From Collinsella tanakaei (GTDB lineage Bacteria; Actinomycetota; Coriobacteriia; Coriobacteriales; Coriobacteriaceae), in contig NZ_JADYTL010000002.1 of assembly GCF_021531055.1 (NCBI RefSeq), forward strand, positions 124,001 to 188,000: a stretch of DNA of 64,000 nucleotides, read 5' to 3'. A model generated the notes under the pieces. The model did not search any database. It saw only the letters and a program-made list of their open reading frames with translations, and had not been told where the DNA came from. The number at the start of each line of letters is the position of its first letter. Positions within the stretch are counted from its first letter, which is position 1. The translations under genes and the position numbers were made by a program. This document shows, piece after piece, positions 39,017-54,200 of this stretch.

Positions 39017-40999
39017 TCAGTTCTGCGAGAAGAACGGATAGTGGTGCGGCGGCATGCCCGGGGTCTGACGCCCCCCGTCCGGAACGTCATCGTGCTCCGA
39101 GAGGTGCAAGAGGGCCTCGCGAAGTTGGTTCTCGAAGCGCTCGGCGTTCTCGCGCATGCGCTGCTGGCCCTCCTCGCTCGCCAGCTCCGCGCGCTGCTCG
39201 GGCGTCAGCCCCAGCAGGTCGCCGAGCAGACCGAGGATCTCCCCGCGGACGCGCAGGCCGCGCTCGGCGCCACGCGTCTCGAGACGCCCCATCTCCTCGC
39301 GCGCGACATCCACGACGCGCTCGGGTGCGGCGCCCCGCCTGCCGAGGTCGGACCATGCGAGCGATGGCGGCCAGATGCGCTCGGCGAAGGCCCGTGCCGA
39401 GACGATCGGGGCGAGCGGCAGCGAGCGACGGTAGCCCTCTCCCTGGCGGACGACCAACAGCAGCAACGCGAGCGCATCGGGCGACTGGTGCGCCAGGGGC
39501 TGATCGTCGAACGAACAGTTCCGATCGACATGCGCCTCGAGCGCATCGTCGATCTGCGCCGGCTCCAAGGCGGCGAGGGTCGCCGCCACGCGCGCCGCGC
39601 GCGACGGGTCGTCGTCGAACGTCGACACGATCTCGGAGACGATGCGCACCATATGGTCCTCGACCGCCGAGAGCGACACCGTCGACACGGAAAGCACCGG
39701 CGAGATCCGATTGCGGTAGCGCGCCAGGAATTCGAGCGCCGTGAGATAGATGTCGCCGAACGGTGCGCACACCGTCCTCGGCGTGCTCGCCGCGAGCAAC
39801 GAGGCGGGAGCGAGCGCCGCATCGGTCTTGGTGATGGATGACAGCACGCACGCATCGAGCTCATGGGCGATGTCGGCAAGATACAACGCGTTGATGCCCA
39901 GACGGAGCCTGCCCACGTCGCGCGCGGGGACATCGCGGTCCATCCAACGCGACACGTCCTCGTGCTCACGCTCGACCAGCTGGATATTGAGGGTCGCGGC
40001 AAGCGCGCGGACACGCTCGACGCGTTCGCGCTCGCGCGTCTCCTGCTGCGGGGTGAACACGTCGGAGCGGCCGAACCCCATGCCCACGACGTTGCGCGGA
40101 CCCAAGGCGTCGACGGCAAGCGCCGCGAGCAACGAGGTGGGAAGATCACCCTCGAGTGGAACGACGACGCGGGTGAACCCACGGGCGGCGACCGTGTCGC
40201 GCACGAAGATGCGAAGCGCCTCCCAGAGCCATTCCTCGCGCTGGAACCGGGGCAGCCGCTGCGTGTCGAGCGACTCACCCATCTCGCCGCGTCGGACCTC
40301 CTGGACGACCATGCCCTCCTCGAAGCACGGGGCGGCGGCCATCACACGGCCGCCGTCGTCCATCACGAACGACCCGCCGGTGTAGACCGTTTCGTCGAAC
40401 GAGCCGACCGGAACCATGCTCGCAAGCCAGATGCCGGCGTGGGCGACGTCGTCCGCATAGTGACCGTCCGCCACCGAGGCGACCGCGCAGGTCTCCTCGT
40501 TGCTGATGTCGAACCCCGTCGTCTGGAAGTAGATCATGAGGTCGCACCCGCGAGGCAGCTGGGCGATATCGCGGGCGAAATCGAACGTGACGGCGATACG
40601 GGTGCCCGCGAGCTCGAACACGACCGGCTCCCACATGCTCGCCTCGACCCGATCGTCGCGAAGGCCCATGAGCGTCCGCAGCGGGATGACGCGACCCTCA
40701 CGCAGCAGGAACGCCTCGGCGAGCGGAACCTGCTCCACCGAGACGACGGCGGGCACCAGACACGCCACCCCCCGCTCCTCCACCTTGGCGGCGAGCTCGC
40801 GCAGCGACCGGATCAGGTCATGCTCGAAATCGGCGTACTCGATGAGCGTCGTCGGCTGCACGCCGGTGAACAGCGGAGCCGGGACACAGAGCAGCTGGGC
40901 ACCGGCGTCGGCCGCGAGCGCCGCCTGGTCGGCGATGCGCGAGCAGATGCCCTCGATGTCGCCTAAGCGCATATCGATCTGTGCCAGAGCAAGTTTCAT
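39017..40999 (-). CDS. NadE-like protein (nitrilase plus NAD-synthetase folds) lacking visible catalytic motifs
   Basis: A 660-residue protein with the domain order of glutamine-dependent NAD synthetase: an N-terminal nitrilase/glutaminase fold (residues 1 to ~265, MKLALAQIDMRLGDIEG...) and a C-terminal NAD-synthetase-like fold. However, the glutaminase Glu-Lys-Cys triad is not evident: FPELxLTGY reads VPAPLFTGV, the lysine loop reads LREGRVIPL, and the cysteine strand reads IAVTFDFARD. In the synthetase half, SGGxDS reads EGDLPTS, and the GTGNKSE segment reads SITKTDA. It is therefore either a pseudoenzyme or a strongly divergent enzyme. Start 40999 has a weak upstream GGGG. The C-terminal ~45 residues are polar and Pro/His-rich. 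Confidence 0.75.
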   Translation of the reverse strand: MKLALAQIDMRLGDIEGICSRIADQAALAADAGAQLLCVPAPLFTGVQPTTLIEYADFEHDLIRSLRELAAKVEERGVACLVPAVVSVEQVPLAEAFLLREGRVIPLRTLMGLRDDRVEASMWEPVVFELAGTRIAVTFDFARDIAQLPRGCDLMIYFQTTGFDISNEETCAVASVADGHYADDVAHAGIWLASMVPVGSFDETVYTGGSFVMDDGGRVMAAAPCFEEGMVVQEVRRGEMGESLDTQRLPRFQREEWLWEALRIFVRDTVAARGFTRVVVPLEGDLPTSLLAALAVDALGPRNVVGMGFGRSDVFTPQQETRERERVERVRALAATLNIQLVEREHEDVSRWMDRDVPARDVGRLRLGINALYLADIAHELDACVLSSITKTDAALAPASLLAASTPRTVCAPFGDIYLTALEFLARYRNRISPVLSVSTVSLSAVEDHMVRIVSEIVSTFDDDPSRAARVAATLAALEPAQIDDALEAHVDRNCSFDDQPLAHQSPDALALLLLVVRQGEGYRRSLPLAPIVSARAFAERIWPPSLAWSDLGRRGAAPERVVDVAREEMGRLETRGAERGLRVRGEILGLLGDLLGLTPEQRAELASEEGQQRMRENAERFENQLREALLHLSEHDDVPDGGRQTPGMPPHHYPFFSQN

Positions 41000-41083
41000 C
41001 GCGTTTCCCCTCGGTAGGTCCGTCCCGTCACATGATAGCGGCACGGACGATGCGGCGCGCGCTCGTTCGCGCGGCACACGAAA

Positions 41084-41111
41084 GGGCCGTCCGCGTCGCC
41101 GCGGACGGCCC
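41084..41111 (-). terminator. Rho-independent terminator after the superoxide reductase gene
   Basis: A perfect 12-bp stem GGGCCGTCCGCG with a 4-base loop is followed on the minus strand by TTTCGTG. It starts 26 bases past the stop of the 41138-41497 gene. Confidence 0.82.
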
Positions 41112-41137
41112 GAGAGCATGACGGACGGCTACCGTCC

Positions 41138-41497
41138 CTAGAACTTCGCGCTCCACAGCCCGTGCAGGTTGCAATACGCGTACACGGTACCGGACTTCAC
41201 GCCGCCGGCGAAAAACGTCACCGGGGTCTGACCGGGCTTGAGGTGATGGATCTCCAGACGGTCATCGGCCTCGAGCGCCACCCATTCGATGTGGTGCGCC
41301 TCCTCCATGGGATGCTCGACCTCGCCCACCTGGACGTGGATGATGTGCCCGTCACGCTGCAAGTCGACGGCGGGAACGTGCTTCTCGGTCGCGGCGTCGA
41401 CGGTGTTGGGCTCGAGGGCGGTGAAGCCCTCGGGGGCCGCAACGCCGTTCAAGCTCGCGAGAAAACCGCCATCGCCGTCGGTATAGAAGGTAGCCAT
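41138..41497 (-). CDS. Superoxide reductase (neelaredoxin type)
   Basis: A 119-residue one-iron superoxide reductase, reducing superoxide to hydrogen peroxide in anaerobes. All ligands of the Fe(His)4Cys centre are visible: His40 in EKHVP, His62 in HPM, His68 in EAHHIEW, and Cys109 with His112 in CNLHGLW. The lysine of EKHVP next to the site is present. It lacks the desulforedoxin Cys4 domain; its first ~35 residues fill that position without cysteines. Start 41497 follows AAGGAG. It is monocistronic with its own terminator. The same enzyme fold appears fused to a DNA-binding domain at 17.1 kb. Confidence 0.92.
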   Translation of the reverse strand: MATFYTDGDGGFLASLNGVAAPEGFTALEPNTVDAATEKHVPAVDLQRDGHIIHVQVGEVEHPMEEAHHIEWVALEADDRLEIHHLKPGQTPVTFFAGGVKSGTVYAYCNLHGLWSAKF

Positions 41498-41601
41498 AAC
41501 GTACTCCTTACGCTGTGATCATCAGATACTGCCCTATTATGCCCAGCGGAGCGATTCGCATACACGGGACGGCACCGCGCCTCAGCGGATCGGGACGTTC
41601 G

Positions 41602-42075
41602 CTATTTGACGGTGAGGACCGGGACGTCGACGGAGCGGAGCACGCCGAAGCTCACGCTGCCGAGCATGCCGCGCAGGGCACCCAGGCCGCGGCGACCCAT
41701 GACGACCAGGTCGATCCCGTGGGTCGTCACGTACTCGGCGATGCCGTCCACCGCGGAGCCGGAGAGCACCGCCGACACCTCGACCTTGCAGCACGCGCCG
41801 TCGCGGGCGGCCTCCGCCACGCGCTCCATCTCGTTGCGCGAGCGCTGAACGATCGAGCTGATCATGGCGTCGTAGCCTTCACTGCTACCGGCGTTGAAGG
41901 GGTCGTCGAACGCCCCTCCGGCGAGCGTGGGTACCGGAACCGCCCCCGTCGAGACGATCATGACCACATGCACCGTGGCTTCGGGGTTGTCCCCCACCAT
42001 GCCGAGAGCGGTGTGCAGGGCACTCTTCGCGTGCTCGGACTCGTCGTAGGGAACCAGAACGTTCTTGAACAACAT
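41602..42075 (-). CDS. Universal stress protein (UspA family)
   Basis: A 157-residue single Usp domain. It begins FKNVLVPYDESEHAKSAL, and the nucleotide-binding signature is GRRGLGALRGMLGSVSFGVLRSVDVPVLTVK, matching G-x2-G-x9-G-(S/T) with SV in the last positions. Members with this loop bind ATP. An insert of ~25 residues (AVPVPTLAGGAFDDPFNAGSS) sits before the third helix. Start 42075 follows AAGGAG. The gene is alone and probably stress-induced. Confidence 0.9.
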   Translation of the reverse strand: MLFKNVLVPYDESEHAKSALHTALGMVGDNPEATVHVVMIVSTGAVPVPTLAGGAFDDPFNAGSSEGYDAMISSIVQRSRNEMERVAEAARDGACCKVEVSAVLSGSAVDGIAEYVTTHGIDLVVMGRRGLGALRGMLGSVSFGVLRSVDVPVLTVK

Positions 42076-42211
42076 GGTCTGCTCCTTTCCCATGACGGAC
42101 GACTTACTGCGTATATACCCGTTCGCGACGTGTCGCGGCGACGCGCGGGCCAAACGCGGGTAGTACAGCCGAACGGAACGAAAGGGCAGGTGAACGGATG
42201 CAGGCGACGCC

Positions 42212-43009
42212 TCAGTACCGACCGCGCAGCGAGTACCAGCCGTCGCGCTCGTCGACCGCGAGCGGCACGCCGAACAGCTCGCTCATGGTCGCGCTGTCGA
42301 GCAGCTCCTCCTTGGGCCCGTCGGCGAAGACCTCGGCATCCTTGATGAGCAGCACGCGCCCGATCGCCGGGATGATGTCCTCGGGATAGTGCGTGACGAG
42401 CACCACCGAGCGCCCTTCGTCGGCAAGCATCCGCATGGTATCGCGCACGTGGTACATGCCCTGCGGATCGAGCCCGGTGCACGGCTCGTCGAAGATCAGG
42501 ATGCGCGGATCGCTCATGAGCTCGCGCGCCACGAGCACGCGGCGCACCTGGCCGGTGGAAAGGGTCATCACGTCGCGGTCGGCGAGCTCGGCGATGCCCA
42601 GGCGATCGAGCGCATCGAGCGCACGGGCGCGGGCGTCGTCGTCGGCCTCCACATGACGCGGCAGACCGAGCGTACCGAACAACCCACCGCACACGATATC
42701 GGCGACGGGCAGATGCACGCGGACCTGGTCTTGCATCGTGGCGCTCACGATGCCGAGCGCCTGCTTGATATCGGACAGCAGCGGACGGGCCTGCCCGCGG
42801 AAGCGCACCGGCGGCTCTTCGCGATGCAGGGGGAACACCTCGCGGGTGAGCAGCTGGATGAACGTGGACTTGCCGGCGCCGTTGGGCCCGAGCAGGGCGA
42901 CGTGCTCGCCCTCGGCCAGATCGAAGCGATCGACGTGCAGGATCGTGCGGCCGGCGCGAACCACCTGCGCGTCGCGCAGCGAGAACAGCGGCGGGGTCGT
43001 TGTAGCCAA
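42212..43009 (-). CDS. Orphan ABC transporter ATP-binding protein
   Basis: A 265-residue ATPase with Walker A GPNGAGKST, Q-loop VSATMQDQ, a slightly variant signature LSTGQ (usually LSGGQ), Walker B ILIFDEP and H-loop VLVTHYPEDI. The pattern resembles the ModF/YlmA group of soluble ATPases, some of which work without a dedicated permease. No permease gene adjoins it; the only unpaired permease in the window (7.5 kb) is far away and of a different class. The start is TTG 43009, preceded by GAGGG; no ATG is available nearby. Substrate or role is unknown. Confidence 0.85.
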   Translation of the reverse strand: MATTTPPLFSLRDAQVVRAGRTILHVDRFDLAEGEHVALLGPNGAGKSTFIQLLTREVFPLHREEPPVRFRGQARPLLSDIKQALGIVSATMQDQVRVHLPVADIVCGGLFGTLGLPRHVEADDDARARALDALDRLGIAELADRDVMTLSTGQVRRVLVARELMSDPRILIFDEPCTGLDPQGMYHVRDTMRMLADEGRSVVLVTHYPEDIIPAIGRVLLIKDAEVFADGPKEELLDSATMSELFGVPLAVDERDGWYSLRGRY

Positions 43010-43120
43010 GATGCCCTCGATTCCTCGATAACGATGCCCCTCGGGTATCGTCTCCCTCGTTTTTTGCTATGCTACTTTACCATGCGAAAGCACGACGACA
43101 CGCGGGAAAGAAGGCGCACC

Positions 43121-44341
43121 ATGGCGGACATGCTCACACTCGACGCATTCGAGGAGGCCTCCGAGAAGGTCAAGGAGGTCACCCAGAAGACCGAGCTCAT
43201 CGAAAGCCCCCACTTCTCGCAGATGACGGGCAACCGGGTGTACCTCAAGCCCGAGAACATGCAGCGCACGGGCGCCTACAAGGTGCGCGGCGCGTACTAC
43301 AAGATCTCGACGCTCACGCCCGAGGAGCTCGGGCGCGGCATCATCACCGCGAGCGCCGGCAACCATGCCCAAGGTGTCGCCTTCGCCGCGACGCGCGCGG
43401 GCGCCAAGTCGGTCGTCGTCATGCCCACCACCACGCCGCTCATCAAAGTGGAGCGCACCAAGGGCTACGGCGCCGAGGTCATCCTGCACGGCGACGTGTA
43501 CGACGAGGCATGCGAGCACGCCCTGCGTCTGGCCGAGGAGCACGGCTACACCTTCATCCACCCCTTCAACGACCCGGTCGTCTCGACCGGCCAGGGCACG
43601 ATCGCCATGGAGATCGTCCAGGAGCTGCCGCTCGTCGACACCATCCTCGTGCCCGTCGGTGGCGGCGGCCTGGCCTGCGGCGTGGCGACCTTCGCCAAGC
43701 TCTACAACCCCAAGATCCGCGTGATCGGCGTGGAGCCGGCGGGCGCACCGTCGCTGTCCGCCGCGCTGGACGCCGGACGCCCCGTGAAGATCCCCGGCGC
43801 CAACACCATCGCCGACGGCACCGCCGTGCTCGAGGTGGGCGACAAGGTCTTCCCCTACCTGCAGCAGAACCTCGACGACGTCATCTGCGTACCCGATGAC
43901 GAGCTCATCGTGTCGTTCCTCGACATGGTGGAGAACCACAAGATGATCGTCGAGAACTCGGGCCTGCTCACCGTGGCCGCCTTGAAGCACCTGCCCGCCG
44001 AGAACCGCCGCATCGTCTCGATCCTGTCGGGCGGCAACATGGACGTCATCACCATGAGCTCCGTGGTGCAGCACGGCCTGATCCAGCGCGACCGCATCTT
44101 CACCGTGAGCGTGCTTCTGCCCGACCGTCCCGGCATGCTCGTGCGCGTGGCCAACGCCATCGCCGAGCAGAACGGCAACGTCATCAAGCTCGAGCACAAC
44201 CAGTTCGTGAGCACGAACCGCAACGCGGCGGTGGAGCTGCGCGTGACCATCGAGGCCTACGGCACCGCGCACAAGGAGCAGATCATCGACGCCCTGCGCG
44301 CCGCCGGCTTCGAGCCCCAGCTCTCGCAGACCATGCTCTAG
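43121..44341 (+). CDS. ilvA: Threonine ammonia-lyase (threonine deaminase)
   Basis: A 406-residue PLP enzyme converting threonine to 2-oxobutanoate, the first step of isoleucine synthesis. The PLP lysine is in LKPENMQRTGAYKVRGAYYK, the phosphate-binding loop is VGGGGLACG, and SAGNHAQGVA is present. A single C-terminal ACT domain (TVSVLLPDRPGMLVRVANAI...) suggests allosteric control, possibly of the catabolic-like or single-ACT biosynthetic type. ATG 43121 is preferred (AAGG ten bases upstream); an ATG at 43082 would add 13 charged residues. It sits just before a RAYT transposase that separates it from ilvDBNC. Confidence 0.95.
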   Translation: MADMLTLDAFEEASEKVKEVTQKTELIESPHFSQMTGNRVYLKPENMQRTGAYKVRGAYYKISTLTPEELGRGIITASAGNHAQGVAFAATRAGAKSVVVMPTTTPLIKVERTKGYGAEVILHGDVYDEACEHALRLAEEHGYTFIHPFNDPVVSTGQGTIAMEIVQELPLVDTILVPVGGGGLACGVATFAKLYNPKIRVIGVEPAGAPSLSAALDAGRPVKIPGANTIADGTAVLEVGDKVFPYLQQNLDDVICVPDDELIVSFLDMVENHKMIVENSGLLTVAALKHLPAENRRIVSILSGGNMDVITMSSVVQHGLIQRDRIFTVSVLLPDRPGMLVRVANAIAEQNGNVIKLEHNQFVSTNRNAAVELRVTIEAYGTAHKEQIIDALRAAGFEPQLSQTML

Positions 44342-44347
44342 CGACAG

Positions 44348-44431
44348 TGTCCCAAAAGGGGCCAGGAGAAAATTGGGACATCCGGGCGCACATCCGGATG
44401 TCCCAATTTTCTCCTGGCCCCTTTTGGGACA
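44348..44431. repeat. Perfect 38-bp inverted repeat left of the RAYT gene
   Basis: Arms 44348-44385 and 44394-44431 are exact reverse complements, separated by eight bases. The arm begins TGTCCCAAAAGGGGCCAGGA and ends in CATCCGG. Each arm also contains a smaller foldback (TCCCAA...TTGGGA). It lies between the ilvA stop and the transposase stop and would fold into a very stable RNA hairpin. Confidence 0.93.
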
Positions 44432-44449
44432 TTTGGGACACCGCTGGCG

Positions 44450-45190
44450 CTAGGTTGTCGCTCTCGTGATCGTCTTCGCACCGATGCCCGTCAAGCGCTC
44501 GATTTGACGAACCGACAGCCGGCTGGCGCGAAGCGCGCGCAACAACTCGTCCCTTTTCTCACGCGAAAGGGACTTCACCTCGCTGAACCCGACATCCCCC
44601 AGAACGCGCCTGGCAACGTCGCCCGCGTCCTCGTCGGGGATCCGAACACCCTCGACGAACAGGTATTCCGCTGACGGGCCCTCTCGGCAAAACTCCGAGA
44701 AACCTTCCGGACCACCAAGCATATCGAGGACGACCTCGGTTTTCGCATACTCCGGAGTGCCCGCATACTCGTGATAGCTACTCCAAGGATAATCCTCGGC
44801 ATCGCAAATGCCCGCCTTCGAAGGATTGTCGTGAACGTATCTGACCGCCTCGAGAAGATATCGATCGCACTCTATCGGGGAACTTTTGAATCTCCCTTGG
44901 AAAACATGGCCGACATGACCCGATCGGGCGTTGAACCATCTCGCGTACCGCATCGTCATCTTCCCCACGGCCTCGCTCAAACGCCCTGTGCGATCGCAAA
45001 GGATCACATGCACGTGATTGTCCATAAGACACCAGGCGATGATGTCGATCTCGCAAGCATGTGCATACTCGCGAAGGAGCTTGAGAAAGAACCGCCGGTC
45101 TTCGTCGTTCTCAAACAGCCTTTGCTTTCCGTTGCCCCTCACGACCACATGGTAGTAGCCGGATTCGGATATTCTTCTCGCTGCACGCAT
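44450..45190 (-). CDS. REP-associated tyrosine transposase (RAYT, IS200-like Y1 family)
   Basis: A 246-residue single-strand DNA transposase-like protein. The start GYYHVVVRGNGKQRLF, the HUH motif DNHVHVIL (His59 and His61), and the catalytic-tyrosine block RYARWFNARSGHVGHVFQGRFKS (candidate Tyr82) are typical of Y1/RAYT proteins. It also has YIHDNP-like YVHDNPSKAG and PWSSYHEY. The C-terminus carries a DnaA-like helix-turn-helix (LSVRQIERLTGI). RAYTs bind and cleave nearby REP palindromes and are thought to spread them. Palindromes of one family flank this gene on both sides, as expected. Base composition is slightly lower GC than neighbours. It interrupts the ilvA-ilvD interval. Start 45190 follows GGGAGGGG. 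Confidence 0.92.
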   Translation of the reverse strand: MRAARRISESGYYHVVVRGNGKQRLFENDEDRRFFLKLLREYAHACEIDIIAWCLMDNHVHVILCDRTGRLSEAVGKMTMRYARWFNARSGHVGHVFQGRFKSSPIECDRYLLEAVRYVHDNPSKAGICDAEDYPWSSYHEYAGTPEYAKTEVVLDMLGGPEGFSEFCREGPSAEYLFVEGVRIPDEDAGDVARRVLGDVGFSEVKSLSREKRDELLRALRASRLSVRQIERLTGIGAKTITRATT

Positions 45191-45210
45191 ACGAACCCCT
45201 CCCCTAGATA

Positions 45211-45351
45211 TCCCAATATTCTCCTGGCCCCTTTTGGGACATTTGAACCCCCTGGGTCCTCATCTGATACCCAGGGAACAGGAGTCCGACGCGCCGAACA
45301 TGTCCCAATTTTCTCCTGGCCCCTTTTGGGACTGCCACCTTTTTGGGACAT
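45211..45351. repeat. Cluster of RAYT-flanking repeats (right side)
   Basis: Two direct copies of TCCCAATTTTCTCCTGGCCC plus CTTTTGGGAC (45211-45242, with ATATT for ATTTT, and 45302-45332). They are followed by a partial copy CCACCTTTTTGGGACAT (45335-45351). Between them, CCCTGGGT (45251-45258) and ACCCAGGG (45269-45276) form a separate hairpin. The family matches the arms left of the RAYT gene. Confidence 0.9.
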
Positions 45352-45587
45352 CGGACGCGTCAAGGCCGCTGGCCGAGAGATTGCGCGCTTTTGCCGAGTA
45401 AAGTGTTTCCTCTCGATAAACTCCTTGCGCGCAGGTGCGGCACTGTAGCATAGTGGAGCAACTTGAGGAAATGCGACGACAGGGCGAGTACCGGACGGAC
45501 GCACCACAGCGAGCGGGCGGCGTGAGAACCCGCGGCGGACGGTCGGGAACATACCCTCGAGCAGCCAGGCCGAACACGGACGCGGCC

Positions 45588-45720
45588 CACGGGCGATCCC
45601 CGTGCCGCGCGTTCGCGAGTACGCCGAGCCGGAAGTCCCCCGTTACGGGCATCCTTGCAGGGCAGCTCCCTTGCCAGCGCATCTCCCAGCACACGACACT
45701 GCGAGAGCGAGGGGGATCGG
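45588..45720 (+). promoter_or_regulatory. ilvD leader with possible ribosome-binding-site sequestration
   Basis: About 370 bp (45352-45720) precede ilvD without a gene. A hairpin CACGGG/CCCGTG (45588-45593/45599-45604) has loop CGATC. The overlapping CGATCCCC (45594-45601) is also perfectly complementary to GGGGATCG (45712-45719) at the ilvD ribosome binding site, so the two foldings exclude each other. A possible promoter is TTGCGC/TAGCAT near 45427-45453. No T-box or leader peptide rich in Ile/Leu/Val codons was seen. Confidence 0.35.
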
Positions 45721-47385
45721 ATGCAACTGCGAAGCGATGCCATCAAGAAGGGACTGGCCAGGGCGCCCCACCGCAGCCTGCTCAAGGCCGACGGACTCAC
45801 CGACGAGGAGCTCGAACGACCGCTCGTAGCGGTCATCTCCGCCCAAAACGAGGTCATTCCCGGCCACATCCACCTGCAGCAGATCGCCGACGCCGTGAAG
45901 GCCGGCGTGCGCATGGCGGGCGGAACGCCGCTGCAGGTCAACACCATCGGCGTGTGCGACGGCATCGCCATGAACCACGAGGGCATGCGCTACAGCCTCA
46001 CGAGCCGCGAGGTCATCGCCGACTCCGTGGAATGCGCCGTGCAGGGCCACCGGTTCGACGCCATGGTCCTCATCCCCTCCTGCGACAAGATCGTGCCCGG
46101 CATGCTCATCGCCGCCGCGCGCCTGAACATCCCCACCATGCTCGTCTCGGGCGGCCCCATGCTCGCCGGCCGCGACAAGTGCGGGCGCCAGACCGACCTC
46201 AACAGCCTGTTCGACGCCGTGGGCCAGGTCACCGCCGGCACCATGACGCCCGAGGAGTGCGCATGGCTCGAGAACACCGCCTGCCCCACCTGCGGCAGCT
46301 GCTCGGGCATGTTCACCGCAAACTCCATCTGCTGCCTCGCCGAGGCGCTGGGCCTGGCGCTGCCCGGCAACGGCACCGTGCCGGCCGTGTACTCCGAGCG
46401 CATCCGCCTGGCCAAGCAGACGGGCATGAAGGTGATGGACCTCGTGCGCTCCGGCACCTGCGCGCTCGACATCCTGAACGAGAAGTCCATCCACAACGGC
46501 ATGGTGCTCGACATGGCCTTCGGCGGCTCCACCAACACGATGCTGCACCTCACCGCCATCGCGCACGCCGCGGGTTGCCCCGTGACCATGGACGACTGGG
46601 ACCGCGTCTCCGACGAGACCCCCAACATCGTGCGCATCGCGCCCGCCGGCCCCCTGCACATCGAGGACCTGAACGCCGTGGGCGGCATCTCGGCCATCAT
46701 GGGCGTGCTCGGCCGCGCGGGCCTGCTGCGCGACGACGCGCTCACCTGCCACGGCACGGTGGCCGAATGGGTCGCCACGTGCCCCGAGCCCGACGGCGAG
46801 ATCGTCCGCACCGTCGAGGGTGCCTACTCCCCCATCGGCGGCCTCAAGGTCATGCGCGGCAACCTCGCGCCCGACTGCGGCGTGGTCAAGCGCAGCGCCT
46901 GCTCGCCCGACATGTACCGCCATTCCGGCCCCGCACGCGTCTTCGACTCCGAGGAGGAGGCCTGCGAGGCCATCTTCGGCGGCAAGATCAACCCCGGCGA
47001 CGTCGTGGTGATCCGCTACGAGGGTCCGGCGGGCGGCCCCGGCATGCGCGAGATGCTGACCCCCACCTCGGCGATCTGCGGCATGGGCCTCGACCACTCC
47101 GTCGCCCTCATCACCGACGGCCGCTTCTCCGGCGCGAGCAAGGGCCCGTGCATCGGACACGTGAGCCCCGAGGCGGCGGCGGGCGGCCCGATCGCCCTCA
47201 TCCGCGAAGGCGATGTCATCGACATCGACATCGAGGCGGGCTCGCTCGACGTACGCCTGTCCGATGACGAACTGGCCGCGCGCCGCGCCGCATGGCAGCC
47301 GCCTGCACCCAAGTACACCACCGGCGTGCTCTCGCGCTACGCGAAGCTCGTCACGAGCGCAGACAAGGGGGCGTACCTCTCATGA
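45721..47385 (+). CDS. ilvD: Dihydroxy-acid dehydratase
   Basis: A 554-residue IlvD, dehydrating dihydroxy-acids to the 2-keto acids of valine and isoleucine. Iron-sulfur cysteines are in the expected places: [22 protein letters not shown] and [14 protein letters not shown]. The substrate/magnesium region [19 protein letters not shown] and C-terminal [22 protein letters not shown] are also typical. Start 45721 follows GAGGGGG. The stop overlaps the ilvB ATG by four bases. First gene of ilvD-ilvB-ilvN-ilvC. Confidence 0.97.
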
Positions 47386-49460
47386 TCGACACCAGCACCA
47401 CCGCAGGCGCCGTGCGCGCCGGAAGCCCGCGAACCGCCGACATGCCCGACGATATCCGCCAGCACGTCTGCACCGGCGCCGCCGCCACGCGTCCCGCGGT
47501 CGACATGAGCCGCGAGGCGCGCCTCGAGCGCAAGCGTCGCGCCGTCTCCGGTGAGCCCTTCGGCCCCGGCAGCCATACGGACAAAGAGGGCCGGACCATG
47601 ACCGGTGCCCAGGCGATCATCGCGAGCCTCGAGGCCGAGGGCGTCGACACGGTCTTCGGCTACCCCGGCGGCCAGGCCATCAAGATGTACGACGCGCTGT
47701 ACGACTCCACCAAGATCCGCCACATCCTCTCCCGCCATGAGCAGGGCGCGGTGCACGAGGCCGACGGCTACGCGCGCGCCACCGGCCGCGTGGGCGTGGT
47801 GCTCGTCACGAGCGGACCGGGCGCCACCAACACCGTCACCGGCATCGCCACCGCCTACATGGACTCCGTGCCGCTCGTGGTCATCTCCGGCCAGGTGACG
47901 CGCGGCGTCATCGGCACCGACGCCTTCCAGGAGGCCGACATCGTGGGCATCACCATGCCCGTGGTCAAGCACAGCTTCCTGCTGCAGTCCAACGACGACC
48001 TCACGCACACGTTCCGCGAGGCGTTCTACATCGCCTCCACGGGACGCCCCGGCCCCGTGCTCATCGACATCCCGAGCGATCTGGCCGGCGAGGAGATGGT
48101 CTTCCACTACCCCGACAAGATCGACATCCCGAGCTACCGCCCCACCTACAAGGGCAACGCCAAGCAGGTCCGCCAGGCCGTGGAGCTCATCCGCACCTCC
48201 AAGCGCCCGCTGCTCATGGTCGGCGGCGGCTGCGTGACGAGCCACGCCTGCGACGAGGTGGTCGAGCTCGCCGAGACCATGCAGATCCCCGTGGTCACCA
48301 CACTGATCGGCAAGGCCGCCATCCCCTGCTCCAACCCGCTGAACCTCGGGCCCGTGGGCATGCACGGCTCCAAGTACGCCAACATGGCCGTCACCGAATG
48401 CGACCTCATCATCGCCGTGGGCGCGCGGTTCTCCGACCGCGTGACCGGCAAGATCACCGAGTTCGCCCCGCACGCGAAGGTCATCCATATCGACATCGAC
48501 CCCGCCGAGATCGGCAAGGTGCGCGACCCGCAGGTGCCCATCGTGGGCGACGCGCGCACGGTCGTCGCGGCCATCAACGAGCGCATCGCCAAGATCGGCG
48601 CCGAACCGGTGAGCGACGAGTGGGTCAAGACCTGCTACGAGTGGCGCGAGCGCTGGCCGTTCTACACCACCGACTTCGCCGACTATCCCGACCGCATCGC
48701 GCCCGAGATCGTGCTCGAGCGCCTCTCCGCCAAGCTCGACCCGCACGCGAGCGTCGTGACCACGGAGGTCGGACAACACCAGATGTGGGCGCATCAGCAC
48801 ATCCATCGCGAGGAATCCCGCACGTTCATCTCGAGCGGCGGTCTGGGCACGATGGGCTTCGGCTTCCCCGCCGCCATCGGCGCCAAGATCGGCCGTCCCG
48901 ACTGCCAGGTCGTCTGCATCGCCGGCGACGGCAGCATCCAGATGGACATCCAGGAGATGGCGACCGCCATCGGCAACGGCGCCGCCGTCAAGATCCTGCT
49001 CATCGACAACAACGCGCTGGGCATGGTGCACCAGTGGCAGCGCCTGTTCTACCGCGAGCGCTATTCGTGCACCGAGTTCACCGCCAACCCCGACTTCGTC
49101 AAGCTCGCCGAGGCGTACGGCTGGACCGCCGAGCGCATCACGCATCCCGACCAGATCGACGACGCCCTCGACCGCATGCTCACCTCCGAGATGCCCTACC
49201 TGCTCGACGTCGTCATCCCCACCAACCAGACCGTCTACCCGATGGTCGCCCCCGGCGCCGCCATCGACGACATCATCGGTGCCATCGACGTGACGCTCGG
49301 CGGCGTCCGCGTGACCGAGAAGGGCATGAGCCCCGCCGGCGAGCATGCCGGCGCCATCGCCGAGCCCCTGCCCTTGACCGACAACGACGCCGACACGCGC
49401 ATCGCCGGCGCGACCGCCGATGTCGTCGTGGATGAATCGGCACAGAAGGGAGGCGAGTGA
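47382..49460 (+). CDS. ilvB: Acetolactate synthase large subunit
   Basis: A 692-residue TPP/FAD enzyme making acetolactate and acetohydroxybutyrate. Core motifs are [16 protein letters not shown], the activating Glu in [21 protein letters not shown], and the TPP block [19 protein letters not shown]...[12 protein letters not shown] 47382 overlaps the ilvD stop (ATGA). This gives an unusual ~72-residue N-terminal extension rich in Arg/Ala/Thr with no family match. An internal ATG at 47598 ([15 protein letters not shown]) is where typical IlvB begins and has AGAGGG upstream. Both starts are possible. A ~45-residue polar C-terminal tail is also extra. The stop region is shared with ilvN. Confidence 0.93.
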
Positions 49461-49462
49461 GC

Positions 49463-49948
49463 ATGAAGCACATCCTCTCCGTCCTCGTCGAGAACAAGCC
49501 CGGCGTCCTGTCGCGTGTGACCGGTCTGGTGTCGCGGCGCGGCTTCAATATCGACTCGCTCACCGTGGCCCCCACCGAGGACACCACCATGAGCCGCATG
49601 ACCATCATCGTCGAGGCCGACGAGGTGGGCTACGAGCAGATCACCAAGCAGCTGCACAAGCTCGTCTCGGTCTACAAGATCTCCGACCTCACCGACACCG
49701 ACGCCATCGAGCGCGAGCTCGTGTTGTTCAAGGTCATCGCCACGCCCGATCGCCGGCACGAGATCATCGAGATCGCCAACATCTTCCGCGCCAACATCGT
49801 GGACGTGGGCAAGAACTCGCTCACGGTGGAGGCGACCGGCACGGCGAGCAAACTCGACGCCATGGAGGACCTCTTCCGTGGCTACGGCATCCGCCAGCTC
49901 ACCCGTACCGGCAAGATCGCCATGTCGCGCGGGGCGAGCGACAAGTAG
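49463..49948 (+). CDS. ilvN: Acetolactate synthase small (regulatory) subunit
   Basis: A 161-residue IlvN/IlvH. An N-terminal ACT domain ([34 protein letters not shown]) binds valine for feedback inhibition, and a C-terminal domain ([34 protein letters not shown]) follows. It pairs with the preceding IlvB. ATG 49463 is nine bases after GGGAGG; a GTG at 49457 overlaps the ilvB stop but is too close to the ribosome binding site. Confidence 0.96.
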
Positions 49949-49987
49949 GGCATCCGCGGCATCCGTCCAGCCCGCGCCATCGGGAAT

Positions 49988-50018
49988 GGGTTGGACGGAA
50001 CACGTCCCCAACCAACCC
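49988..50018. repeat. GGAACACGTCCCCAACC-family repeat inside the ilv operon
   Basis: One copy with GGGTTG and CAACCC ends lies between ilvN and ilvC, 38 bp before the ilvC start. As it lies within a presumed single transcript, the hairpin could affect RNA processing or the relative expression of ilvC. Confidence 0.9.
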
Positions 50019-50055
50019 ATCGGTATCAACGGCCAAGACACGTAAGGAGAACATC

Positions 50056-51051
50056 ATGGCTGTGACTATCTACTACGAGTCCGATTGCGATCCCAAGATC
50101 ATCCAGGACAAGAAGATCGCCATCATCGGCTACGGCTCCCAGGGCCACGCCCATGCGCTGAACCTGCTCGACTCGGGCTGCGACGTGCGCGTCGGCCTGC
50201 GCGAGGGCTCCAAGTCCTGGGCCGCCGCCGAGGAGGCCGGCCTCAAGGTCTGCGACATGGACACCGCAGCCGAGGAAGCCGACGTCATCATGATGCTCGT
50301 GCCCGACGAGACCCAGCCCAAGGTCTACGAGGAGCACATCAAGGACCACCTCAAGGCCGGCGACACCCTCGCCTTCGCCCACGGTTTCAACATCCACTTC
50401 GGCTACATCAAGGCCCCCGAGGACGTCAACGTCATCATGTGCGCGCCCAAGGGCCCCGGCCACATCGTGCGCCGCCAGTTCACCGAGGGTTCCGGTGTGC
50501 CCGATCTGGCCTGCGTGGCACAGGATGCCACCGGCAACGCCTGGGACATCGCGCTCGCCTACTGCTGGGGCGTGGGCGGTGCCCGCTCCGGCATCATCAA
50601 GGCCACCTTCAAGGAGGAGACCGAGGAGGATCTGTTCGGTGAGCAGGCCGTGCTGTGCGGCGGCCTGGTCGAGCTCGTGAAGGCGGGCTTCGAGACGCTG
50701 ACCGAGGCCGGCTATCCGCCCGAGCTCGCCTACTTCGAGTGCTACCACGAGATGAAGATGATCGTCGACCTCATGTACGAGAGCGGCATCCACTTCATGA
50801 ACTACTCCATCTCCAACACGGCCGAGTACGGCGAGTACTACGCCGGCCCCAAGGTCATCAACGAGGAGAGCCGCGCGGCAATGAAGCAGATCCTGGCGCG
50901 CATCCAGGACGGCTCCTTCGCCCAGGAGTTCGTCGACGACTGCAACAACGGCCACAAGTGGCTGCTCGAGCAGCGCGAGAAGATCAACGAGCACGAGATC
51001 GAGAAGACCGGCGAGAAGATCCGCTCCATGTTCAGCTGGATCAAGAAGTAA
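50056..51051 (+). CDS. ilvC: Ketol-acid reductoisomerase
   Basis: A 331-residue class I enzyme that isomerises and reduces acetolactate. The Rossmann motif is [21 protein letters not shown]. The cofactor-specificity loop [10 protein letters not shown] carries Arg and Ser residues, suggesting NADPH. The magnesium-binding aspartate and glutamates are in [35 protein letters not shown]. Start 50056 follows AAGGAGA. It closes the ilvDBNC operon and is followed by a strong terminator. Confidence 0.97.
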
Positions 51052-51079
51052 TCCAAGACTCGATATAACACGCTCATGA

Positions 51080-51118
51080 CAGGTGCCCGACGTCCCACAT
51101 GGAAACGTCGGGCACCTG
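51080..51118 (+). terminator. Terminator of the ilvDBNC operon
   Basis: A perfect 14-bp stem CAGGTGCCCGACGT and its complement, with an 11-base loop, begins 28 bases after ilvC and is followed by TTCGTTTCC. A degraded, inverted GGTTGGGGACGTGTTCC repeat follows at 51133-51149. Confidence 0.85.
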
Positions 51119-51132
51119 TTCGTTTCCGGGTC

Positions 51133-51149
51133 GGTTGGGGACGTGTTCC
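51133..51149. repeat. Degraded inverted copy of the GGAACACGTCCCCAACC repeat
   Basis: GGTTGGGGACGTGTTCC matches the reverse complement of the family core exactly; the flanking arm (TTTCATCCCC) is degraded. It lies between the ilvC terminator and the convergent dnaE stop, with otherwise featureless sequence (51150-51291). Confidence 0.8.
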
Positions 51150-51291
51150 TTTCATCCCCTTCCCCGACCGGAAACTCTGGAACGATCGGATGCGGGGGGC
51201 GGCATGGATAGCGACGCGACGGCTCAACACCAGCCGACGCGTCGCTGAACTCCTCGGTAATCCGAGACTCGCCTCAAGGCGCGTCTTCGCG

Positions 51292-54200
51292 CTACACCAC
51301 CGTCACGCGGCCGCGGTTGCCCACGATGCCGCGGACCTCGGCCATGAGCGGGATGGAGCGGGCATTCACGCGCGTGGGGATCTCGGCGCGCATGGTCTGG
51401 CCGTCACCCTGCTCGATGAACAGCTCCACGCGGTCGCCGCCCGGATTGGTGGCGAGCACGGTGGCGAGACGCGCCATGTTGCCCTGCGAGAAACGCGAGC
51501 TCGGCACCATGATCTCGAAGACCTTGGGACGGTTGTTCTCCTCGGACAGCTCGAGCGGCAAGATCTCCTGGGCGATGATCTGGTCGCCGCGGTCGGAACG
51601 CTCCAGCTTGCCGCGCACCCGGATGAAGGCGTCCGACAGCACCGCACCCGTCTCGGGGTCGGTCTCGCCGTACAGGTACCCCTCGGCCTCCTTGTAGGTC
51701 TTGGGGAACACCACGACCGTGGCCTCGCCCTCCATGTCCTCCAGGCGCACGATCGCCATGGGGTCACCGTTTTTGGTCACGCGCTTGGAGACCTCGGCGA
51801 CCATGCCCGCGAACCAGAACGGCTTGCCCTCGGGAATCTCCTGGTTGATGGTGCCCTCGCCTGCAGGGTTCGCCATCTCGAAACCCGTGTCGATCTGCGA
51901 CAGCGAGTACTCGCGCGCCTTGGCGAGTGCGTATTCGAACGGTCGCAGCGGATGGTCGGAGACGTAGATGCCCAGCACGTCGCGCTCAGCGGACAGCTTC
52001 ATGTGGCGGTCCCACTCCTGGCCGTCGGGCTCGGGGATGACGACCTCGAAGCCCGAACCCTCGACGTCGCCGAACACGTCGAACAGCGACGTCTGACCGG
52101 CGGCGCGGTCCTTTTGGCGCTTGGTCGCGGCGTCGATGATGTTCTCGGGATTGTTCTTGTCCACGAAGCTCATGAGTTGGCGGCGCGGATAGCCGGTCGA
52201 GTCGAAGGCGCCCGCCTTGATGAGCGCCTCGATGACGCGGCGGTTGGCCTGGGAGGAGTCCACGCGGTCCACGAAATCGTGCAGGTTCTTGAAGGCGCCG
52301 CCGCGCTCGCGCTCGGCGATGATGGCATCGGCGACACCCTCTCCCACGCCGCGGATGCCCGCCAGGCCGAAGCGCACGCCCTCGGCGGTCGCCGTGAACT
52401 CGCGGCCCGACTCGTTGACATCAGGCGGCAGCACGGGGATACCGTCGTGACGGCAGGCGGACACGTAGTGCACGATCTTCTCGGTCTTGCCCGTGTAGGA
52501 GGTGAGCACCGCCGCCATGTACTCGTGCGGATAGTGGGCCTTCAGCCACGCGGTCTGCATGACCAGGATGGCGTAGCCGGCCGAGTGGGACTTGTTGAAC
52601 GCGTAGGACGCGAACTCCAAGACGTCGTCCCAGATCTTCTGCGCCGTCTCGCGCTTGTAGCCGTTTTTCTCGGCGCCGTTCATCCAGTGGTCGTAGATGG
52701 TCTCGTCCTCGCCGTCCGACCAGTTGAAGACCTGCTCGGTGAGCATCTTGATCTTCTTCTTGGCCACGGGCTTGCGGATGCGCGAGTCGGACTCGCCCTT
52801 GGAGAAGCCGCACATCTCGACCGAGATGTTCATGACCTGCTCCTGGTAGACCATGGTGCCGTAGGTCTCGCCTAGGATGTCGTCCAGGCGCGGATCGTAG
52901 GAGACCGCGGGCTCCTTGCCGTTCATGCGGTTGATATAGGACGAGACCATGCCCGCGCCCAGAGGACCGGGGCGGTACAGGGCGATCAGAGCGACCACGT
53001 GCTTGTACTCGGTGGGCTTCATGTTCTTGATGGTCGCCGTCATGCCGGCGGACTCGATCTGGAACACGCCCGCCGTGTGACCGGCCTGCATGAGCTCGAA
53101 GATCTTGGGGTCGTCGAACGGGATCGCGTCCACGTCGATGTCGATGCCGAAGTTCTTCTTGATGTTGGCCTTGGCCTTGGAGATGACCGTGAGGGTGCGC
53201 AGGCCCAGAAAGTCCATCTTGAGCAGGCCCATATCCGCGACCGTATGGCCTTCGTACTGTGTGATCTCCACGCCGCCCTTGGTGTCGAGCTTGGTGGGCA
53301 CGTGCTCGTTGACCGGGTCGCGGCAGATGAGCACGGCGCAGGCGTGCACGCCCTCGCCGCGCGTCAGGCCCTCGATGGCGAGCGCCGAGTCGATGATGCG
53401 CCGGGCGTCGTCGTCTTTCTGATAGGCCTCGGCGAAGTCGGGGTTGTACAGGTCCTCCTTGCCCTCGACGCGCGTGAGCACCTGCTTGAGCTTGACCGAT
53501 GGGTCGCTCGAGATCATCTTGGACAGGCGTTGTCCCACGTAGACCGGGTAGTCCAGCACGCGGGCGGCGTCGTTGATGGCTTGCTTGGCCTTGATGGTCG
53601 AATAGGTGATGACGTGGGTGACCTTCTCGGGGCCGTAGAGCTGTCGCACGTGCTCGATGACCTCGAGGCGCCGCTCATCGTCGAAGTCCATGTCGATATC
53701 GGGCATCTCGGAGCGCTCGGGCGACAGGAACCTCTCGAACATGAGGCCGTTGGACAGCGGGTCGAACGTGGTGATGTCCATGGCGTAGGCGACCAGGGCA
53801 CCCGCGGCCGATCCACGGCCCGGCCCCACACCGATGCCGTTTTGCTTGGCCCAGCGCACGTACTCTGCCACGATCAGGAAGTAGGCGGCGAAGCCCTTCT
53901 CGCAGATGACCTTGTACTCGTACTCGAAACGCTCCTGGATGTTGACGCCGCCGATCGTCTGCTCGCGCCAATCCTCGCCGTAGCGCTTCGCCAGGCCCTC
54001 CTCGCACTCGCGGCGGAACTGGCTCTCATGCGTCTCGCCGGGATCGAGCAGCGGGTAGTTGGGCAGGATGATGCTGTCCCAGTCGAGCTCGACGTTGCAC
54101 TTCTCGGCGAGCTCGACGGTGTTGTCGCACGCCTCAGGGCAGTACGGGAACAGCGCGCGCATCTCGTCCTCGGTCTTCATGTAGAACTCGGAGCCCTGCA

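Follow-up and report, generated by a model that had tools for sequence, protein, structure and literature searches.

A Y1 gene between ilvA and ilvD in Collinsella tanakaei, probably a site-bound HUH nuclease with its own REPIN-like repeats

In the survey of TnpA-Y1 proteins by Quentin et al. (2018; PMC6006769), subclass 2.1 is the largest subclass outside the insertion sequences, characterized by a median length of 238 residues, the motifs NHVH (or NH[YF]H), FQ, Y---NP and SS, and a C-terminal HTH-like region. Automatic and manual searches found no REP-like sequences beside genes of this subclass, which was left without repeat partners and for which further analysis was requested. The survey identifies subclass 2.1 with group 1 of the RAYTs defined by Bertels; the TIRYTs described by Di Nocera et al. 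(2013; PMC3733652) are probably the same group. A word search of the latter paper returned no mention of Actinobacteria, Eggerthella or Olsenella, and in the limited set of papers searched no report links genes of this type to Actinobacteria or Coriobacteria.

The locus analysed here resembles the TIRtrons (PMC3733652), in which inverted repeats, often built on a GGGG-rich core (GGGGWSAS in that study), stand on both sides of a Y1 gene and some repeat families are moderately abundant and occur in dimers; unlike there, the core is GGGGCCAG at this locus and mostly GGGAC[AG]G across the class. With E. coli TnpA-REP, of RAYT group 2 (PDB 4er8; PMC3116915, PMC8266576), it shares the HUH/Y fold, a gene that appears not to hop, dispersed intergenic hairpins and inverted pairs, but the GT[AG]G tag is absent, the hairpin has a 17-nt loop over an 8-bp stem and the protein carries an extra C-terminal domain. 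IS200/IS605 elements (IS608, ISDra2) have the same HUH/Y1 core and hairpin ends, whereas the gene described here is not multi-copy, encodes a larger protein and is fixed at its site. Taken broadly, as a Y1 gene beside a dispersed intergenic palindrome family that includes inverted pairs, the terms RAYT and REPtron apply to this locus.

The Y1 gene and its flanking repeat units

The gene lies on a 64,000-nt stretch of contig NZ_JADYTL010000002.1, hereafter the window, in the following arrangement.

43121–44341 (+): left-hand gene, for an ilvA-type threonine dehydratase; its stop codon lies 6 bp from unit A
44348–44380 (+): repeat unit A, 33 nt, perfect consensus
44399–44431 (−): repeat unit B, perfect; forms a REPIN-like inverted pair with A
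44432–44440 (−): repeat fragment TTTGGGACA, between the A/B pair and the gene
44450–45190 (−): gene for a RAYT/TIRYT-like HUH Y1 protein of 246 aa (open reading frame list, Pfam, model)
45209–45241 (−): repeat unit C, two mismatches; before the gene, 18 bp from its start codon
45301–45333 (−): repeat unit D, one mismatch; oriented like B and C
45340–45351 (−): repeat fragment TTTTTGGGACAT
45721–47385 (+): right-hand gene, ilvD (dihydroxy-acid dehydratase); next come ilvB, ilvN and ilvC

The initial annotation had described a Y1/HUH transposase gene separating ilvA from ilvDBNC, with a perfect 38-bp inverted repeat on its left and two direct copies and a fragment of the same element on its right. 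Each of these elements is borne out; the second fragment, at 44432–44440, had been overlooked.

The 246-aa protein matches Pfam Y1_Tnp (1.1e-13) and contains NHVH at positions 58–61, RYVHDNP at 117–123, and FQ. In an alignment of 40 relatives, N58, H59 and H61 are invariant and Y118 is conserved in more than 90%. An AlphaFold2 model built with these 40 relatives as input (pLDDT 90.7) has as its closest PDB structure 4er8, E. coli TnpA-REP on a REP hairpin (E 1.5e-7), followed by the TnpA proteins of IS608 and ISDra2. The model ends in three helices (210–222, 227–234 and 238–245). HTH_23 or HTH_28 profiles are matched in some relatives, and the window protein itself gave no match to them at 0.05 or better in the profile search; because of this, its predicted HTH-like C-terminal region rests on the model and on the relatives. 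Against the NCBIfam REP-associated equivalog REP_Tyr_transpos the protein scores 67.9 bits, below the cut-off of 80, and against the IS200 model 17.6 bits, far below the cut-off of 55. Judged by its motifs (NHVH, FQ, Y---NP and SS), its length and the HTH-like region, rather than by the published profiles, it shows the hallmarks of TnpA-Y1 subclass 2.1 (group 1 of Bertels, TIRYT). The GC content of the gene is 0.571, against 0.652 for the whole window; most Y1 genes of the group are lower in GC than their own loci. Three further Y1 genes of the same genome (L011, L012 and L009, on contigs 13 and 8) are only about 48–53% identical to the window gene, and each stands at a separate site with a different family of hairpins next to it; one of these families, GGTTGGTTGGGGACGTGTTCC, has 51 copies in this genome.

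The 33-nt repeat unit, TGTCCCAAAAGGGGCCAGGAGAAAATTGGGACA, is laid out as TGTCCCAA - AAGGGGCCAGGAGAAAA - TTGGGACA and by itself folds into the hairpin described above; it lacks a GT[AG]G tag at the hairpin foot. Folded together (44348–44431), units A and B and the 18-nt spacer between them give a perfect stem of 38 bp closed by a loop of 8 nt; its energy of −50.3 kcal/mol (z −15.7) was equalled by none of 200 shuffles. There is no T-run after this stem, and an Rfam scan of window positions 40000–52000 gave no match. That scan also covered the stretch directly before ilvD (45440–45720), which is strongly conserved in two families (in relatives, for example, GCGAGCGGGCAGCGTGAGAACC) and may serve ilvD as a leader or regulatory RNA.

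The repeat population in the genome and its relatives

The 19-nt core of the repeat, TCCCAAAAGGGGCCAGGAG, occurs at 48 places in the whole 2.23-Mb genome with up to three mismatches, 19 of them exact, compared with 0 places for the core pattern read backwards. The excess is therefore not due to chance, and the absence of the repeat elsewhere in the genome, which would have spoken against the initial annotation, is not seen. Stretches fetched around these hits contain 52 unit matches, a count that takes in more degenerate repeats within these stretches only; most have the same sharp ends (TGTCCC and GGGACA), and among them are four inverted pairs and about five direct ones. Outside genes lie 39 of the 52, against a coding density of 0.868 (p 5e-24), with genes called by a simple codon-usage procedure of our own instead of a standard gene finder; some of the 13 units scored inside genes may reflect over-long open reading frames. 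Units often stand directly behind stop codons. The RAYT-with-REP reading of the initial annotation is right in kind, given the HUH fold, the bracketing and the dispersed intergenic repeats, and has to be amended as to the type: the marks are those of subclass 2.1/TIRYT, the REP_Tyr_transpos score stays below its cut-off and the GT[AG]G tag is missing.

Some copies are nested. On contig 14 of the genome (G000, at about 77.4 kb; L149:7400–7555), an inverted unit pair occupies the middle of a palindrome that is older, GGTGTCCCGAAAGGGACCAGAG/CTCTGGCCCCTTTCGGGACACC, as though the apex of one element had served as the insertion point of another. At two loci of G042, a genus mate (L199:3067 and L202:3040), a truncated unit ending in GGGGCCAG precedes another unit, the same breakpoint being used twice; the position after GGGGCCAG is possibly a preferred insertion point. 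Nested copies of these two kinds may reflect insertion of one element into another.

With two mismatches allowed at most, this genome has 43 units, G042 has 16 and G047 has 10, and the remaining 42 genus mates have 0. In another genus, G060 has one unit and G063 seven, every one at two mismatches. G042 and G047 both lack the gene. In G047, whose IlvA protein is 97% identical, the ilvA–ilvD gap is 514 bp, compared with 1383 in our genome, and holds a worn unit at the position of unit D, next to another hairpin, GACAAGATGGTGCCAGGTACAAACTTGTC, that is present twice; the gap of G042 holds an inverted unit pair and a piece of the GACAAGATGGTGCCAGGTACAAACTTGTC hairpin, and nothing else. Most units in G042 and G047 are at positions orthologous to our genome's, so the repeat family predates the split of the three. 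The initial annotation had proposed testing whether copy number falls in strains without the gene, and had named equal abundance in related genomes without such a RAYT as a refutation: copy number is highest with the gene, so this refutation is not borne out, and the repeats persist without the gene in the two close relatives. Four unit sites of our genome that were checked have no recognisable unit in G042 or G047, and no exact insertion junction could be read at the empty sites, because the intergenic DNA of these relatives is too diverged.

G143, which belongs to another family (an Atopobiaceae-type genus) and has a gene at the ilvA site, shows this design with a unit of its own: the unit is present in 40 copies, almost all of them arranged as inverted pairs, against 0–13 copies in the eleven other genomes searched. 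G113, by comparison, has an ilvA-site gene 63% identical to the window gene and yet only 4 copies of its unit, which speaks against a simple rule that the gene means amplification. The repeat type found with genes at another site, gpmI–secG, is also common in some genomes with another gene type there (G020, G042), and tracks the gene clade only loosely. Because repeats persist without the gene, as in G042 and G047, or without its type, as in G020 and G042, the cognate link is not strict. Gene and repeat are thus indeed linked, though loosely: a repeat can outlive its gene, and not every gene amplifies its repeat.

Flanking elements and chromosomal sites across the Coriobacteriia

From 80 named loci, searches of the family and order and the fetched stretches, we compiled a set of 111 distinct genes, of which almost all belong to Coriobacteriia; NHVH is present in 74 and Y..NP in 106. 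For the 106 loci with enough flank, both flanks were searched for a common element, with the upstream flank of one gene against the downstream flank of another as the control. An element common to both flanks was found at 85 of 106 loci (80%) but in only 5 of 530 mismatched pairings (0.9%), although the former figure overstates the number of independent cases because related loci at one site are not independent. The survey of subclass 2.1, by contrast, reports no REP-like repeats. The copies are inverted across the gene at 70 of the 85 loci, an arrangement also known from TIRtrons. A GGGAC[AG]G core is present in 60 of the 85 elements, compared with 8.6 for random segments of the same flanks, and a stem of at least 6 bp in 69, compared with 24% of random segments, whereas the GT[AG]G tag is depleted (10, compared with 29 random). 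GGGGWSAS, the TIRtron core, fits only 18 of the 85; the window core, GGGGCCAG, misses its W, and inverted repeats are present at the window locus. Although the elements vary between lineages, their design is common: complementary arms around a GGGAC[AG]G core.

By their flanking proteins, 21 genes are at gpmI–secG (names that we assigned from translations of the flanks), 13 share a second site and 7 are at ilvA–ilvD, with smaller groups elsewhere. When the eight site labels are mapped on the protein tree, 8 changes account for their distribution, where the minimum is 7 and shuffled labels need a mean of 38.9. The genes are inherited in place. A single clade of the seven ilvA-site genes, those of Atopobiaceae and our own, is not rejected (p-AU 0.846; likelihood +30 units), so that the ilvA–ilvD site holds one gene lineage in two families. 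The dN/dS ratio is 0.08–0.20 in nine non-saturated pairs of related genes, and these related genes are therefore under purifying selection; synonymous sites of the window gene itself are saturated. The statement of the initial annotation that the gene "entered or been retained" in a biosynthetic locus can be sharpened accordingly: one lineage occupies the same site in two families, and relatives without the gene keep the repeats.

The gene of our genome clusters with three Atopobiaceae ilvA-site genes (97 SH-aLRT) and not with members of its own family, and it is the only one seen at ilvA–ilvD among the family genomes searched. In the comparison with G042 and G047, the DNA on either side is that of genus mates as far as the repeats, and a transfer, if there was one, therefore involved the module only. 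The gene may have been retained for long and lost many times, or the module alone may have been transferred between native flanks; with two relatives to compare, loss in G042 and G047 and gain in the lineage of our genome are both possible directions. A variant in which the solo pair of G042 is ancestral, and the gene was inserted or transferred in our lineage, perhaps from Atopobiaceae, is compatible with our preferred reading of the module and somewhat less probable than its converse: the clustering, the solitary occurrence and the low GC of the gene favour it, whereas the native flanks limit it to the module and a low GC is typical of most Y1 genes of the group.

In two further genomes (G198 and G119; L184 and L187), the ilvA–ilvD gap holds a small gene (MDTAHLDA...) instead of the Y1 gene, after a GAGACA-type unit at the ilvA stop; it could be either cargo or a replacement.

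Proposed activity and alternatives

The window module is probably of the TIRtron/REPtron type and comprises a domesticated HUH nuclease that acts on single strands and is bound to its site, together with a REPIN-like population of its own. A subclass-2.1-like nuclease, kept at its site, would recognise one hairpin unit and have spread it, as monomers and inverted pairs, mostly into intergenic DNA. By analogy with TnpA-REP (PMC8266576), we infer that the window protein cuts and rejoins single-stranded hairpins, and that it moves this repeat by a single-strand route: the substrate would be single-stranded DNA, for example behind the replication fork, which the tyrosine would cut and rejoin. The gene itself would not hop, its flanking repeats being its targets and also a likely route of its loss; if the DNA between the direct units B and D were deleted, only the paired repeat would be left, as found in G042.

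An unlikely alternative is that the repeats are host elements, such as terminators, mRNA 3′-end hairpins or insulators between convergent genes, and that the Y1 gene is incidental. Host elements could well be intergenic and often directly after stop codons, as these units are, and the pair begins 6 bp after the ilvA stop, a unit overlaps that stop codon in other genomes and the repeats persist where the gene is absent. However, lineage-specific bracketing shared at most loci and in hardly any mismatched pairing is hard to obtain by accident, no T-run follows the stem and Rfam has no match. That the module is an ordinary autonomous IS200/IS605-type insertion sequence, with the repeats as its ends and solo ends elsewhere, is very improbable: the HUH/Y1 fold common to IS608 and ISDra2, the hairpin ends and the absence of the gene from close relatives would fit, but the other three Y1 genes are divergent and each at its own site beside its own repeat, the gene tree and the site labels agree almost perfectly, an extra C-terminal domain is present in the 246-aa protein and the IS200 score is far below its cut-off.

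Beyond the window, we lean slightly towards a more general reading, in which the subclass 2.1 Y1 proteins of Coriobacteriia are domesticated genes tied to a few addresses (ilvA–ilvD, gpmI–secG and others), each with its own fast-changing population of GGGAC-core hairpins. These results bear on the question of why bacteria keep RAYT genes over the long term: subclass-2.1-like proteins in one bacterial class have recognisable repeat partners, fixed sites and purifying selection. Gene-free sites of close relatives with the repeats left behind make co-evolution, repeat decay and loss by recombination testable in gut bacteria. If the general reading is true, the Coriobacteriia would offer many natural replicates of enzyme–repeat co-evolution at fixed sites.
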